Shown one piece after another: positions 3,209 through 8,946 of a DNA stretch of 29,036 nt (its first letter is position 1; every line of letters starts with the position of its first letter). The notes below the pieces were generated by a model. The model saw only the letters and a list, made by a program, of their open reading frames with translations. It was not told where the DNA came from and searched no databases. The stretch spans positions 1 through 29,036 of IMG/VR virus record IMGVR_UViG_3300017783_000143; one strand, given 5' to 3'. This DNA is from a virus. A program made the translations under genes and the position numbers.

Positions 3209-3430
3209 ATGAAGTTTACAACACCCAAAATCAAAGACATTTCTGACTTTCAAACAAATAGACTAGCAGGTCCACTTAATGTTTTCAGTTTAATAACTGT
3301 TAGCATGGTGTGGGGTCACATGTTAGGCTTATTGAACTTATGGTTCTTACCATTAACGTTCACAATGATGTTAGTTGGATACGGCTCTGAAATACAAAAA
3401 GAAAAACCCAAACAAAACGTTACACTATAA
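3209..3430 (+). CDS. Small membrane protein (73 aa)
   Basis: The start at ATG 3209 is preceded by AGGATAAAG, an acceptable ribosome binding site. The protein has a polar N-terminus, then two closely spaced hydrophobic stretches: about residues 22-42 (PLNVFSLITVSMVWGHML) and 44-60 (LLNLWFLPLTFTMMLVG), then a lysine-rich tail (EIQKEKPKQ). A helical hairpin of two membrane segments with a charged C-terminus would also suit a class II holin. However, it lies in the packaging block and overlaps the HNH gene by TAATG, so its function is open. Confidence 0.65.
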   Translation: MKFTTPKIKDISDFQTNRLAGPLNVFSLITVSMVWGHMLGLLNLWFLPLTFTMMLVGYGSEIQKEKPKQNVTL

Positions 3431-4017: not shown

Positions 4018-4241
4018 AGATGACTGGATTTAAAAGTAATGACCCCAAAGACTATGAAGCAGTAAAACGTGCAATAGATGAATACTTGGAAGAAGCATTG
4101 GATCCAGAAACGTATGCTGTGAGAAAGATGTTTGAAAAGATTAAAAGGCCCACATACACTTGGGACGATGATGATGTTATTATACCACCAGGCGGAGGAA
4201 TGAAGCCGCATCCTTGGGATAATGACCCTTGGGATAAATGA
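4014..4241 (+). CDS. Small acidic hypothetical protein (75 or 81 aa)
   Basis: Two starts are possible. ATG 3996 gives 81 residues (MAALAKMKMTGFK) with a 22-nt overlap into the HNH gene; ATG 4014 gives 75 residues with only the stop codon overlapping. I prefer 4014. The protein has a helical part (DYEAVKRAIDEYLEEAL) and an unusual tail rich in Asp, Pro, Gly and Trp (TWDDDDVIIPPGGG then PWDNDPWDK). It is unrecognised. It lies between two HNH endonuclease genes and overlaps the next by ATGA, so it may be a passenger or an original packaging-block gene between two homing insertions. Confidence 0.6.
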   Translation: MKMTGFKSNDPKDYEAVKRAIDEYLEEALDPETYAVRKMFEKIKRPTYTWDDDDVIIPPGGGMKPHPWDNDPWDK

Positions 4242-4753
4242 GAGACACTATGAAGTATGAAAGAAAAATTAAACCAATAACACAAAAAGATGTAGATAGA
4301 TTTTGGGGCCATGTTGATATAAAGGGTGAAGATGAATGTTGGGACTGGCGTTTGGCAATTACTAATCACGGTTACGGATTGTTTGCCGCTGGAGGCAGTT
4401 TACATAGATGCACACGTTTTGCTTACATACATGGTGAAGGATTATACACCAAAAAGATTACTGGTAATTTGAGAATAGCCACAACATGTAGAAATAAGAA
4501 GTGTTGCAATCCTAAACACATGAAGTTAAACAGTCAACAAGAAGTATTTGATTTAATGAGAGCGGCTGGACAAATAAGTGTAGGCACAGACTGTAAGCAA
4601 TCAAAACTAAAAGAATCAGATATATTAGCCATAAGAGCACGTTATACAAACAGAAGTGCCACAGACGGATACGGTGGCATAAGTGAAGACTATGGTGTAA
4701 CACCAGGCTGTATCAGAGACATTATAATACGCAAGACATGGAGACATGTTTGA
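4238..4753 (+). CDS. Second HNH endonuclease (171 aa)
   Basis: The protein shows a WDW motif (DECWDWRLAITNHGYG), a tyrosine and glycine-rich strand, then TCRNKKCCNPKHMKLNSQQE, whose C-C-N-P-x-H-M pattern is the HNH_3 metal and catalytic segment. The C-terminal part (KLKESDILAIRARY to CIRDIIIRKTWRHV) is a helix-turn-helix resembling that at the end of the first HNH gene; both proteins end in K-T-W-R-H. This suggests related enzymes sharing a DNA-binding tail. Its end overlaps the large terminase start by 16 nt. An in-frame ATG at 4250 is an alternative start. It could be homing, packaging-associated, or both. Confidence 0.85.
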   Translation: MRDTMKYERKIKPITQKDVDRFWGHVDIKGEDECWDWRLAITNHGYGLFAAGGSLHRCTRFAYIHGEGLYTKKITGNLRIATTCRNKKCCNPKHMKLNSQQEVFDLMRAAGQISVGTDCKQSKLKESDILAIRARYTNRSATDGYGGISEDYGVTPGCIRDIIIRKTWRHV

Positions 4754-5973
4754 GACTAAGCAAACCACAACAAGTTATTAGTAATGATGCTACTAGATTT
4801 AGAGTAGTTGTTGCTGGCAGACGTTTTGGAAAGAGTATGTTAGCCATTAATGAACTTGCAAAGTTCAGTGTAAAGCCCAAACAGAGAGTGTTAGCACTAT
4901 ATTCAACGTATAGGCAGGCTAAAACAGTTATCCTTGACGAATTATTAGACAGACTGTATGAAAAGAACTGGATCAAAGACGTAAACAAATCAGAACTCAC
5001 AATAACATTAAAGAATGATAGCAAGATATTCATTAGAAGTGCTGACAACAGAGAAGCATTGCGTGGATCACGTTATGACTTTATAGTAATGGATGAGTGT
5101 GCTGACTTACACCCTGATGTGTGGACTACTATATGTAGACCTATGTAAGCAGACAGCAATGGACATGCATTATTCATAGGAACGCCAAAAGGCCGAGGTA
5201 ACTGGTTCTACGATTTATATGTGAGAAGTGGTGCTGAACAAGAATGGAACAGTCATGTTTACAAAACAATTGAAGGTGGTTGGATTACAGAAGAAGAAAT
5301 AGAAAGTGCCAAAAGAGATTTAGATTCACGTGAATTTGCCCAAGAGTTCTTAGCAGAGTTTCAAGACTATAGTGGTATTATATATCATGCCTTCACTGAG
5401 GACAACATACAGCCCAATACGTTCCCAGTAGAACAACTCCGCACCCTACATATAGGTATGGACTTTAACAACAGTCCTATGAGTGCTGTGATAGGTTATA
5501 TGAACGGTGCTAAACTACATGTGATAGACTTTATTGAAATATACCAATCCAATACATATGAAATGATACAAGAGATTAAAACACGTTACCCAAATAGAAA
5601 CTATGTGTGTTATCCGGATGCAAGTGGCAGTCACAAGTCAACTAACAGTAATCAATCTGACCACATCATATTGGCAAACAATGGCTTTAAGTTAGTTGTG
5701 GGCAAAACCAATCCTCCAGTAATAGACAGAATAAATGCAGTAAATAGTTTGTTGTGTAATGCAAAAAGTGAACGCAATTTGTTAATAGATCCTAAGTGTG
5801 CAAAGATAAGAGAGATGCTAATCAAAATGAGTTACAAAGAAGGAACTAGAATACCAGACAAAGACAATGTGTTAGACCATGCCGCTGATGCTTTAGGATA
5901 CTTAGTGTATCAAAACTTTGGTATAACACGTGAAAGAGAACGAGGATATGCTCACAGTAAAAGGAGACTATAA
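4738..5973 (+). CDS. terL: Terminase large subunit, interrupted by in-frame TAA at 5146-5148
   Basis: This is the ATPase/nuclease motor that packages DNA into the prohead through the portal. The N-terminal half shows Walker A (VVVAGRRFGKSM, about residues 23-34) and Walker B (YDFIVMDECAD, about 113-123). The reading frame then meets TAA at 5146-5148 directly after ICRPM, yet continues in the same frame with ADSNGHALFIGTPKGRGNW, the conserved terminase segment around T-P-K-G. The nuclease domain follows with GMDFNNSPMSAV, PDASGSHKS and DHAADALGYL carrying the acidic residues. Read through, the protein is about 411 residues, normal for the family. The stop occupies a position where Leu is common, and TTA to TAA is one base. 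It may be a nonsense variant, an assembly error or recoding. A GTG at 5221 could restart only the nuclease part. Confidence 0.9.
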
Positions 5974-6556: not shown

Positions 6557-6723
6557 GAACAAAACACAGAGCAACAACTAGATACAGTAATGGTGGCAAA
6601 TACAGAGGCAAAGTTATACCTCATGATGAAATACAAAGACGTATTGCACAAAGTTACGGATTCAAGTTTACATTACCAGAAGCACCACAACAACAGGAAC
6701 AAATAGAAACCATAACAGTATAA
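6553..6723 (+). CDS. Small basic hypothetical protein (56 aa)
   Basis: The ORF starts in the ATGA overlap with the previous gene and ends at TAA 6721-6723. It is strongly basic at the N-terminus (MRTKHRATTRYSNGGKYRGK) and glutamine-rich at the C-terminus (APQQQEQIETITV), consistent with a nucleic-acid-associated or structural small protein. It is the last gene of the left operon; the terminator at 6792-6828 follows. Confidence 0.5.
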   Translation: MRTKHRATTRYSNGGKYRGKVIPHDEIQRRIAQSYGFKFTLPEAPQQQEQIETITV

Positions 6724-6726
6724 ATA
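6719..6726 (+). promoter_or_regulatory. TATAAATA, exact T4-late-type octamer
   Basis: TATAAATA overlaps the stop of the last left-operon gene. Downstream, before any gene, are a perfect hairpin AACTCT-GTC-AGAGTT (6755-6769) and the terminator at 6792-6828, so initiation here would yield an RNA of about 100 nt. Identity to the T4 late promoter core is seen directly; activity is inferred. Confidence 0.35.
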
Positions 6727-6791
6727 TTGTTGTGTTATAAGTTTTATTTTGGGTAACTCTGTCAGAGTTTGTGTGGGCTAATAACATATTA

Positions 6792-6828
6792 GGAACCTCA
6801 TAGTGTGGCCATTGTGGGGTTTCTTTTT
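6792..6828 (+). terminator. Rho-independent terminator of the left operon
   Basis: GGAACCTCA (6792-6800) pairs with TGGGGTTTC (6815-6823) over nine positions including two G-U wobbles, loop 14 nt, followed by TTTTT (6824-6828). Its position 69 nt after the last gene supports it as the operon end. Confidence 0.8.
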
Positions 6829-6834
6829 GGGCAT

Positions 6835-6886
6835 AAAAAAACGCCTTACTAACAATACACACAATGTTTTATTAAGTAAGGCGTTT
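6835..6886 (-). terminator. Minus-strand rho-independent terminator
   Basis: AAACGCCTTACT (6839-6850) and AGTAAGGCGTTT (6875-6886) are perfect 12-bp reverse complements with a 24-nt loop. Read on the minus strand, the stem runs into seven consecutive T residues (plus A6841-A6835). On the plus strand the stem is followed only by TTTACAT. The signal therefore serves minus-strand transcription. Confidence 0.88.
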
Positions 6887-6999
6887 ACATAAACTATAAC
6901 ATATCACACACACCCGTGTGTAAATTAGGAAACAATAAACATTGTATTCTAATCCAGGAATTCTCCTTAATTAAAAATTAATGTTTCCTTTGTTACAGT
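6835..6999 (-). ncRNA. Candidate minus-strand small RNA (about 165 nt)
   Basis: The interval is framed by a strong sigma70-type promoter (7005-7032) and a perfect intrinsic terminator (6835-6886), both on the minus strand, the opposite direction to every protein gene. No ORF of meaningful length is present; the longest ATG-initiated peptide is MFIVS. The RNA would fold: GGAAACA (6987-6981) with TGTTTCC (6934-6928), AGGA-gaat-TCCT hiding an AAGGAG sequence, and CACA-CGGG-TGTG near 6910. The target or function is unknown. It would be transcribed by unmodified host RNA polymerase and so probably early. Confidence 0.65.
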
Positions 7000-7004
7000 A
7001 GTTA

Positions 7005-7032
7005 ATTATACTTCTTTTTGGATCAAAGTCAA
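7005..7032 (-). promoter_or_regulatory. Strong sigma70-type promoter on the minus strand
   Basis: On the minus strand the sequence reads TTGACT (7032-7027), a 16-nt spacer, then TATAAT (7010-7005). The -10 is a perfect consensus and the -35 has one mismatch. The predicted start is A6999 or an adjacent base. This is the best sigma70-like promoter I found in the window, and it points away from the coding operons. Confidence 0.75.
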
Positions 7033-7058
7033 CCTTTTATGGTATCTTTATTTTATCC

Positions 7059-7097
7059 AAAAAAAAACTACAAAGTGAATGGTCACAATGTAGTTTC
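7059..7097 (-). terminator. Second hairpin with minus-strand T tract
   Basis: AAACTACA (7065-7072) pairs with TGTAGTTT (7089-7096) and an inner GTGA (7075-7078) pairs with TCAC (7083-7086), separated by a symmetric AA/AA internal loop. On the minus strand the stem is followed by nine T residues (plus A7067-A7059). On the plus strand it is followed by CTTTAG, so weak activity there is possible. Any minus-strand transcript entering from the portal side would stop here before reaching the sigma70 promoter. Confidence 0.7.
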
Positions 7098-7103
7098 TTT
7101 AGT

Positions 7104-7138
7104 CTCTGTTATTCAGAGTAGGTTTGCTAGGACAAGCC
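7104..7138. repeat. Two adjacent hairpins upstream of the portal gene
   Basis: CTCTG-ttatt-CAGAG (7104-7118) and GGTTTG-ctagga-CAAGCC (7121-7138, one G-U) lie side by side, just before the hairpin at 7059-7097 when read on the minus strand. They could be part of a second minus-strand RNA ending at 7059, but no clear promoter for it was found between 7140 and 7233. Confidence 0.45.
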
Positions 7139-7189
7139 ATACATACTTACACTTATACACCATATAAACACCAAAGAACTGGTAAAGTA

Positions 7190-7197
7190 GATAAATA
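7190..7197 (+). promoter_or_regulatory. GATAAATA motif upstream of the structural operon
   Basis: GATAAATA ends 36 nt before the portal ATG and is followed by CAATCGTA, close to the CAAGCATA that follows the motif at 20697. It lies exactly where the promoter for the head and tail operon is expected, downstream of the terminator cluster. No sigma70 promoter was seen on the plus strand here. Confidence 0.5.
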
Positions 7198-7233
7198 CAA
7201 TCGTATACAATTTAAAAAACCCATGGGGACTAT

Positions 7234-8946
7234 ATGAGCAAACCTCTCAGTTACGGCGAATTTATCGCTGATATTCACATCTTATATGCAAGATATCATG
7301 ACACCTGGGATCTTTCTTATCGTAGTTTTCTCGGATCAGAGGAATACAAACAAGGCAGATACCTTAAGATGTTCCAAGAAGACCAGCAAACAGGATCCGA
7401 AGTAATCAATACATATACTGTAGATGAATTCGGAAACACAACTGGCAAACACAAATCAAAAGTAACACAACACTACGGTGGCACTGACACAGCATCGGCT
7501 TATGCTGGTAATGAAAGTGATGACAACAGTTACTATGCTGAAAAAATAAACAATGTTAGTTTCTACAACTATGTAAAACTAATTGTAAACGAATACAATT
7601 CCATCCTATTTAAAAATCCAGCACATAGATTATTACCTGAAACACCAGAGATGTTAGCATTTCAACAGAACTGTGATGGAACTGGCAACAGCCTTCCAGA
7701 GTTCTTCAGTATGGTGGACACATTAGTAAGTGTATTTGGTGTGAGTTGGTTAAGTGTTGTTAAGCCTAGCGGATCTGCAATACCGCGTTTCGCAGTTCAT
7801 AATCCACTAGACGTTACCAATTGGGAATTTGGATATAACCAAGACGGTGACCAAGTGTTGCGTAAGTTAGTAGTTAAAGTAGCAGAAGAACAAAACCAAA
7901 CAGTATATAGATACTTTACACCAGAAACAATTGAAACTGTGTTTATGAGTGATGATGAAGATTACTTACCACCAGATATTGAAGGTTTGTTCGAACAAGA
8001 AGACGGTGTGTTTAGAGTAGTGCAAGAAAACGAATTAGGATACATTCCTTGTTTCCCAATTTATCAAGGCATACCTACATATCCTGGAGTTGGTAGTTCA
8101 CCAGTATTAGATGCAAGTATTATACAAAAAGAAGTATACAACTTGAATTCAGAGATATACAGTTCAATCAATTACAGCATTCATCCTACATTAGTAGTTG
8201 ATGAACAAACAGACGAATTGAACAATGGCGAGATTGGTGCCGCCGCAGGTAGTATAGTAAGAGTTAACAGTGGTCTCCAAGGTGAACAAAATTTCACATA
8301 TGAGTTTAGACAACCAAACACTGATCCAGTAACTGAACTAAAAGACCTAATAGACAACAAAATACAAAAGATGTTAGAAACATGTATGATTAGAAGCGAT
8401 GAACTAATCAAAGCATCAAGTAGTGCCGCAATGATAGAAACATTGGACACTAAACTACAAGCATTCATTAGAAAGAAAGCAGTTCAAATGGAAAATGCAG
8501 AAAAACGTGCATTTGATATCTATCATGACTGGACTGGTGAAAGCAATGAAGTAGAAATCAGTTATAATAGACAATACAACAACCGTGCTATGGAGCACGA
8601 ACTAAAAGAATTAAACATGATGATGGATCTATATGATAGATTCTATCAGAATACTACCCAGTTTGTTGCAAGACACTTTAACAGTAGTCTAGAAGCAGAA
8701 GCTGAAGCACAAAGACTAGGTGGTGAAGGATTTCATACCCATGAAAACGAGAATGGAGAAACAATATTCATGCCATTCAAAACACACAAAGAATACGAAT
8801 TAACATTAGAGGCCAGCAACCCAGGCGTTGACTATGAAGAAAGTCAAAGCATAATGGGCCAAGGCGTCAAAGAAGATTTACGTGACAGACTGCGTGATAG
8901 ACTCGAACAGTTATTGACTACGTCAACGACTACTAATAGTTTATAA
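7234..8946 (+). CDS. Portal protein (570 aa)
   Basis: The portal forms the dodecameric ring at one capsid vertex that the terminase docks to and through which DNA moves. The start at ATG 7234 follows a GGGGAC ribosome binding site. The length fits the family. The N-terminal alpha/beta region contains NNVSFYNYVKLIVNEYNSIL, the central wing domain includes DTLVSVFGVSWLSVVKPSG and PRFAVHNPLDVTNWEFG, and the stem region is helical, with KASSSAAMIETLDTKLQAFI followed by RKKAVQMENAEKRAF. The S-S-A-x-x-x-x-x-L-D pattern before the final helices is typical of portals. It is the first gene of the structural operon and precedes the scaffold and capsid genes in the usual order. Confidence 0.88.
   Translation: MSKPLSYGEFIADIHILYARYHDTWDLSYRSFLGSEEYKQGRYLKMFQEDQQTGSEVINTYTVDEFGNTTGKHKSKVTQHYGGTDTASAYAGNESDDNSYYAEKINNVSFYNYVKLIVNEYNSILFKNPAHRLLPETPEMLAFQQNCDGTGNSLPEFFSMVDTLVSVFGVSWLSVVKPSGSAIPRFAVHNPLDVTNWEFGYNQDGDQVLRKLVVKVAEEQNQTVYRYFTPETIETVFMSDDEDYLPPDIEGLFEQEDGVFRVVQENELGYIPCFPIYQGIPTYPGVGSSPVLDASIIQKEVYNLNSEIYSSINYSIHPTLVVDEQTDELNNGEIGAAAGSIVRVNSGLQGEQNFTYEFRQPNTDPVTELKDLIDNKIQKMLETCMIRSDELIKASSSAAMIETLDTKLQAFIRKKAVQMENAEKRAFDIYHDWTGESNEVEISYNRQYNNRAMEHELKELNMMMDLYDRFYQNTTQFVARHFNSSLEAEAEAQRLGGEGFHTHENENGETIFMPFKTHKEYELTLEASNPGVDYEESQSIMGQGVKEDLRDRLRDRLEQLLTTSTTTNSL

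Follow-up and report, generated by a model that had tools for sequence, protein, structure and literature searches.

Results

The window, by which we mean the whole 29,036-nucleotide stretch analyzed (a 29-kb virus record), carries at its two ends a 148-bp repeat whose copies are 98.6% identical, and contains recognizable terL, portal and tape-measure genes, the TerL being an ordinary one. All of its recognizable protein genes lie on the plus strand. The description of a one-direction genome in the first-pass annotation therefore held for the window, but not for its relatives, in which minus-strand protein ORFs occupy the interval between terL and portal. In the window this interval, which we call the slot, is bordered by a small ORF ending at 6723 and by portal, which begins at 7234. 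No plus-strand ORF of at least 50 aa was found inside 6724-7233, so that a minus-strand transcript from the slot would not be cis-antisense to a gene of that size, and an ORF check bore out the earlier statement that a minus-strand segment of about 165 nt contains no meaningful ORF. The features of the locus are as follows (contigs carrying relatives are designated by L numbers).

6724-7233, no strand: intergenic slot between the terL gene group and portal; in relatives it holds minus-strand genes or other RNAs
6791-6829, plus: terminator-like hairpin behind the terL gene group, abutting the RNA 3' end; -18.9 kcal/mol
6835-6886, minus: P4 hairpin and terminator; 12-bp stem, inner element UUGUGUGUAU at 6864-6855, T-run at 6841-6835
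6836-7004, minus: small RNA of about 165 nt, start estimated at a few nt below the -10; homologues in L001, L011, L013, L014, L054 and L063
6893-6901, minus: P1 3' arm UGUUAUAGU
6904-6923, minus: P3 hairpin UUACACAC-GGGU-GUGUGUGA; loop GGGU at 6915-6912
6927-6989, minus: P2 arm; 6989-6982 pairs with 6934-6927; inner hairpin with AAGGAGAAUUCC at about 6976-6947
6991-6999, minus: P1 5' arm ACUGUAACA, pairing with 6901-6893 and closing the three-way junction
7005-7032, minus: sigma-70-type promoter; -35 TTGACT at 7032-7027, 16-nt spacer, -10 TATAAT at 7010-7005
7059-7100, minus: terminator-like hairpin directly upstream of the RNA promoter, also in L001 and L002; absent from the first-pass annotation

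Promoter, terminator and predicted fold

Both transcription signals proposed earlier, the minus-strand TTGACT-16-TATAAT at 7032-7005 and the perfect 12-bp hairpin with seven T at 6886-6835, were found in place. The promoter matches the consensus at 11 of 12 positions and is the best sigma-70-like site, and the sole 11/12 match, in the window. As dinucleotide shuffles of the window held on average 2.2 sites equally good, compared with the one observed, the promoter is not significant by itself. The 12-bp hairpin (5' arm 6886-6875) with its T-run did not occur in any of 15 shuffled genomes; three of the seven T are also paired within the stem, which leaves a free U-tail of about four, and the element has the form of an intrinsic terminator in the window RNA. 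A search of viral contigs with the exact promoter-start pattern gave one true match, on the L001 contig, and one chance match, on L006; the exact terminator pattern gave no match in viral contigs, and the general promoter pattern found mostly protein genes behind a similar promoter. Separately, many protein genes on diverse viral contigs (L086-L118) are preceded by a promoter of the type GGTTGAC[AT]T...AAGA[AT]GT..ATAAT.

The predicted fold of the RNA has a free energy of -54.3 kcal/mol; shuffles gave -28.4 +/- 3.4, a z of -7.6. P1 closes a three-way junction of P2 and P3, and the P4 hairpin follows; this junction and the GU-rich loop of P4 had been overlooked in the first reading of the locus.

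Relatives and covariation

Relatives were gathered by searching viral contigs for portal, TerL and the start of the RNA. Seven distinct RNA sequences were obtained on eight contigs, the window counted: those of the window, L001, L014 (the same as L018), L011, L013, L054 and L063. In each member the RNA lies downstream of terL on the opposite strand, and before portal wherever the contig reaches that far, the position in L011 being known from the terL side only. The family is divergent, with portals down to 44% and TerL down to 57% identical, both values being those of the distant member L063. Four members folded well below their shuffles (z of -5.3 for L014, -5.0 for L063, -3.4 for L013 and -3.2 for L011); L001 alone was only modestly better (z -2.5). 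A promoter of the form TTGAC[AT]T...TATAAT precedes the RNA in all family members, and from this conserved sigma-70 consensus it is a reasonable inference that the host polymerase would be its transcriber. In L013 a tRNA-Asn gene (8086-8160, minus) lies directly upstream of the RNA promoter.

In place of a covariance-model search we scanned 1.66 Mb of loci with a descriptor of P1, P2 and P3 with its GGGU loop. Family members came at the top, and the lower-scoring matches were without a promoter except for one weak match in L165. L054 and L063, which have a weaker P3, were missing among the matches listed, showing that the descriptor was strict.

The covariation analysis was carried out on a core set of 28 pairs in the seven sequences. 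The MAFFT alignments (A4 and A5) had P2 and P3 out of register and, because the arms were misplaced, we spliced them by hand into register (alignment A6), a procedure that leans towards structure; a covariance model from A5, with 14 pairs only, was dropped in favor of pair counts on this hand-spliced core. In the core 91.8% of cells were paired, and pairing fell to 35-51% in controls in which the partners were slid. Nineteen of the 28 pairs were changed on both sides, giving 47 such cells compared with 16.5 in shuffles, where the tally is of sequences rather than of independent events and L011, L013 and L063 share several states. All 14 pairs of P3 and P4 covary. No measure of the core was reached in 500 shuffles (0/500). 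Read on the minus strand, the core contained 11 G-U and 2 A-C cells; as RNA from the plus strand would show the reverse, the minus strand is indicated as the RNA strand. Since matched base changes preserve the shape of the RNA as its sequence diverges, we are highly confident that the locus is a real RNA gene.

Certain parts of the RNA stay constant in sequence as well. The GGGU loop of P3 is invariant in all seven sequences, and the joining stretch ACAAUGUUUA is largely constant. The AAGGAG previously seen tucked into a hairpin is indeed there, and the GGA...UCC element within P2 is kept in six of the seven. In P4 the stem varies freely and the GU-rich element inside it persists: UUGUGUGUAU is present in the window, L014, L011 and L063, slightly altered in L013 and L054, and represented in L001 only by the weaker UGUGUUUAU. 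The P4 of the window and of L014 has a U-run at its end and is able to act as a terminator. In L011, L013, L054 and L063 it is without a clean U-tract, so that the end of the RNA is uncertain there and P4 need not be a terminator; L063 has a second P4-like hairpin further on. The first-pass annotation had proposed an independently transcribed small RNA, and had named loss of the -10/-35, the terminator or the stems in relatives as counting against it. Position, promoter, fold and compensatory changes are kept in the relatives, which strongly supports such a transcript, and the proposal withstood this check on relatives, the U-tract of P4 not being clean in the four members just named.

The GU-rich element also recurs in the slots of L119, L122, L123, L151 and L165, and short GU-like strings occur elsewhere in slots, 45 on the anti strand and 29 on the sense strand. 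The sequence comparison suggests that the P4 loop may be the working part of the RNA. In L123 (minus, near 3363), L151 (minus, near 4967) and L165 (minus, near 4231) we also observed hairpins with an AUAAAU(U)GUGUGUA loop, which could possibly form a pseudoknot with the bases directly 3' of the stem.

The terL-portal slot in relatives

From the end of terL to portal the slot measures 0.9 to 5.3 kb in relatives. It is missing in relatives with 47-51% identical TerL, in which terL abuts portal, and the two genes are also adjacent in HTVC111P. Minus-strand ORFs behind similar promoters are found in the slots of L001, L002, L011 and L054, and other promoter-driven structured RNAs in those of L126, L145 and L159 and, on the sense strand, L163. 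The portal of L002 is 97% identical to that of the window; five minus-strand ORFs lie in the L002 slot behind a similar promoter, and no match to the RNA start was found anywhere in its 29-kb record, which nonetheless retains a P4-like terminal hairpin. As L002 is without the RNA and has protein ORFs in the slot, the RNA is accessory; on these grounds it looks like accessory cargo that would stand outside the virion-assembly machinery.

Several other occupants of the slot deserve mention. A second non-coding RNA of about 130 nt consists of a pair of neighboring hairpins, with a GUGUGG or GUGUAG loop in the second, and of a strong terminator after them; it was seen in L126 (minus, near 7031), L145 (near 8445), L159 (near 3973) and L163 (sense strand), and also in L091 and L095, and Rfam gave no match for the loci tested. 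Cargo proteins in L002 (3599-4665, minus) and L011 (3980-4778, minus) resemble ADP-ribosyltransferase folds by eye, the sole support being one sub-threshold Tpt1/KptA match (E 0.003). A conserved very short plus-strand frame follows the plus-strand terminator in L001 (about 5244-5285), L002 (about 3380-3421) and the L119 slot, and reads MNN(E/D)PHRRRLSNY in L001 and L002.

Searches for identity and partner

The window RNA and its relatives matched no family in Rfam 15 at the gathering threshold, in keeping with the earlier failure to recognize the RNA, and the sub-threshold matches of a permissive Rfam search were chance-like (E 0.67 or worse). ARAGORN found no tRNA or tmRNA in the window RNA, a DNA search of cultured phages gave no match to it, and the family was not found in the literature searched. 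The window RNA contains, as read by eye, no CACAACA target mimic. No obvious target had been found by eye in the first reading, and likewise none of the pairings of conserved segments with phage translation-start regions was better than background; the complement of UUGUGUGUA occurs in the phage genome only at the RNA locus itself. A host RNA or protein is thus the likelier partner.

Discussion

To our knowledge, well-described phage sRNAs are scarce beyond the phages of enterobacteria and cyanobacteria. The RNA described here is a genuine phage RNA family with its own scaffold and loop, of a kind that is already known, probably the phage moron sRNA. The carriers are a lineage of small, marine-type tailed phages of roughly 29 kb.

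We see about an even chance that this is a moron-like sRNA, transcribed by host sigma-70 polymerase and acting in trans by way of conserved, exposed loops on a host partner, probably RNA. Host sigma-70 RNA polymerase would transcribe it from the minus-strand promoter present in the sequence, and in the window genome the P4 hairpin and U-run would end the transcript. The transcript would then fold, as prediction and covariation indicate, into the three-way junction followed by P4. The junction and stems, free to vary in sequence, would serve as a scaffold for a constant GGGU loop and for the largely constant ACAAUGUUUA and P4 UUGUGUGUAU; the GU-rich loop would bind in trans to CA-rich stretches of host RNA or to a host RNA-binding protein. 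Such binding may shift host gene expression to the advantage of the phage, as phage-borne moron sRNAs do.

The nearest known systems are AgvB (EcOnc01) and AsxR (EcOnc02), moron sRNAs of enterohaemorrhagic Escherichia coli phages that act in trans on host sRNAs (PMC4104026). The 5' variable domain of AgvB mimics the CACAACA target of GcvB (PMC4104026), whose seed R1 pairs with CACAACA sites (quoted in PMC4104026). Like these two, the window RNA gene would be accessory cargo of a phage, part of it conserved and part variable, and it has both the cargo position and the transcription signals of its own that mark an AgvB-type gene. It differs from them, with their 5' variable domain, in having a three-way junction and no CACAACA, and from AgvB in having a constant element rich in GU instead of CA. 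With GcvB the window RNA shares a presumed contact in the form of a constant GU-rich stretch, but it is set apart from GcvB by the lack of any Rfam relationship and by the placing of that stretch inside the terminal hairpin. Cyanophage CfrI and the phage RNAs OOP and sar are described as acting by antisense pairing on a named phage gene (review PMC12197685); the window RNA resembles them as a small RNA gene predicted to be transcribed apart from the structural genes, but lies opposite no recognizable gene and pairs with no phage start above background.

The main rival to action on RNA in trans is that the molecule is a protein sponge or decoy, its GGA-UCC hairpin or GU-rich element titrating an RNA-binding protein of the host (CsrA-like, Hfq or a ribonuclease). 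The conserved elements turn up again in slot RNAs that are otherwise unrelated, which fits a protein partner in common better than a single antisense target. However, each RNA has one or two GU elements and no more, and in the window GGA lies in the stem rather than the loop of its hairpin; GGA is not known to be so placed in CsrA sites. On balance we regard a sponge as possible but on the unlikely side.

An effect in cis, in which minus-strand transcription or the hairpins would serve as insulation for the terL and portal units, the RNA product being irrelevant, has the layout of the locus in its favor: the RNA gene points against the structural genes, has hairpins on both sides and is enclosed by a plus-strand terminator-like hairpin and the portal gene. 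Insulation, however, has no need of 19 compensated pairs and a constant loop, and no recognizable plus-strand gene lies opposite the RNA; we therefore consider this reading improbable.

The phi29 pRNA is a phage-coded three-way-junction RNA of a size similar to that of the window RNA. A packaging RNA of this type, assisting the virion motor, would account for the location of the RNA, which in every member found is between terL and portal (for L011 by the terL side only), beside the packaging genes, and for a three-way junction that is closed by pairing of the 5' end with the 3' end. Such an RNA should, however, be present in every phage using the motor, and we rejected this very improbable reading because near-identical L002 has protein ORFs in its slot and no match to the RNA start. 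Relatives with 47-51% TerL identity, and HTVC111P, lack the slot altogether; where present, it also hosts unrelated genes and RNAs. Unlike a phage with a phi29-type motor RNA, moreover, the window phage has an ordinary TerL, and its RNA is without an Rfam match.

Translation of a very short peptide from the AUG in ACAAUGUUUA, with AAGGAG as ribosome-binding site (GGAG stands about 22 nt before the AUG in the window, L014 and L054), was rejected as hardly credible, since that spacing is too long, the GGA is base-paired, L011 and L001 lack the AUG, and the frame is unstable in length, with 5 codons in the window and L063, 18 in L014, 21 in L054 and 32 in L013.

The slot itself may have a broader meaning, which we put forward very tentatively and think unlikely as it stands: it would be a site of turnover where non-coding effectors, all directed at a single host factor, come and go. 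In this reading several unrelated scaffolds (the three-way junction, the two-hairpin RNA of L126, L145, L159 and L163, and the possibly pseudoknotted hairpins of L123, L151 and L165) would carry a related GU-rich element and be swapped with protein cargo, giving the phages a store of interchangeable RNA effectors. The locus also marks a cargo slot where proteins and RNAs replace each other, and the RNA, being conserved and covarying and having a defined promoter, provides an exact probe for metatranscriptomes. If the GU-rich loop binds an RNA or protein that is common in hosts, this family would reveal how small phages alter their hosts with few recognizable takeover genes.

As to the host, among cultured phages a related portal (24-27% identity) was seen only in the Pelagibacter phages HTVC111P, 112P, 202P and 026P and in phage DSL-LC06. 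From the kinship to Pelagibacter phages, an alphaproteobacterial host is possible; the sole match in a prophage search, a 40% identical TerL in a betaproteobacterial MAG, says little about the host. Finally, we observed that terL of the window is split into ORFs 4738-5148 and 5221-5973 by an in-frame TAA (in the region 5131-5165), which follows RPM where relatives have a leucine codon, and which may be a sequencing error or a real lesion.
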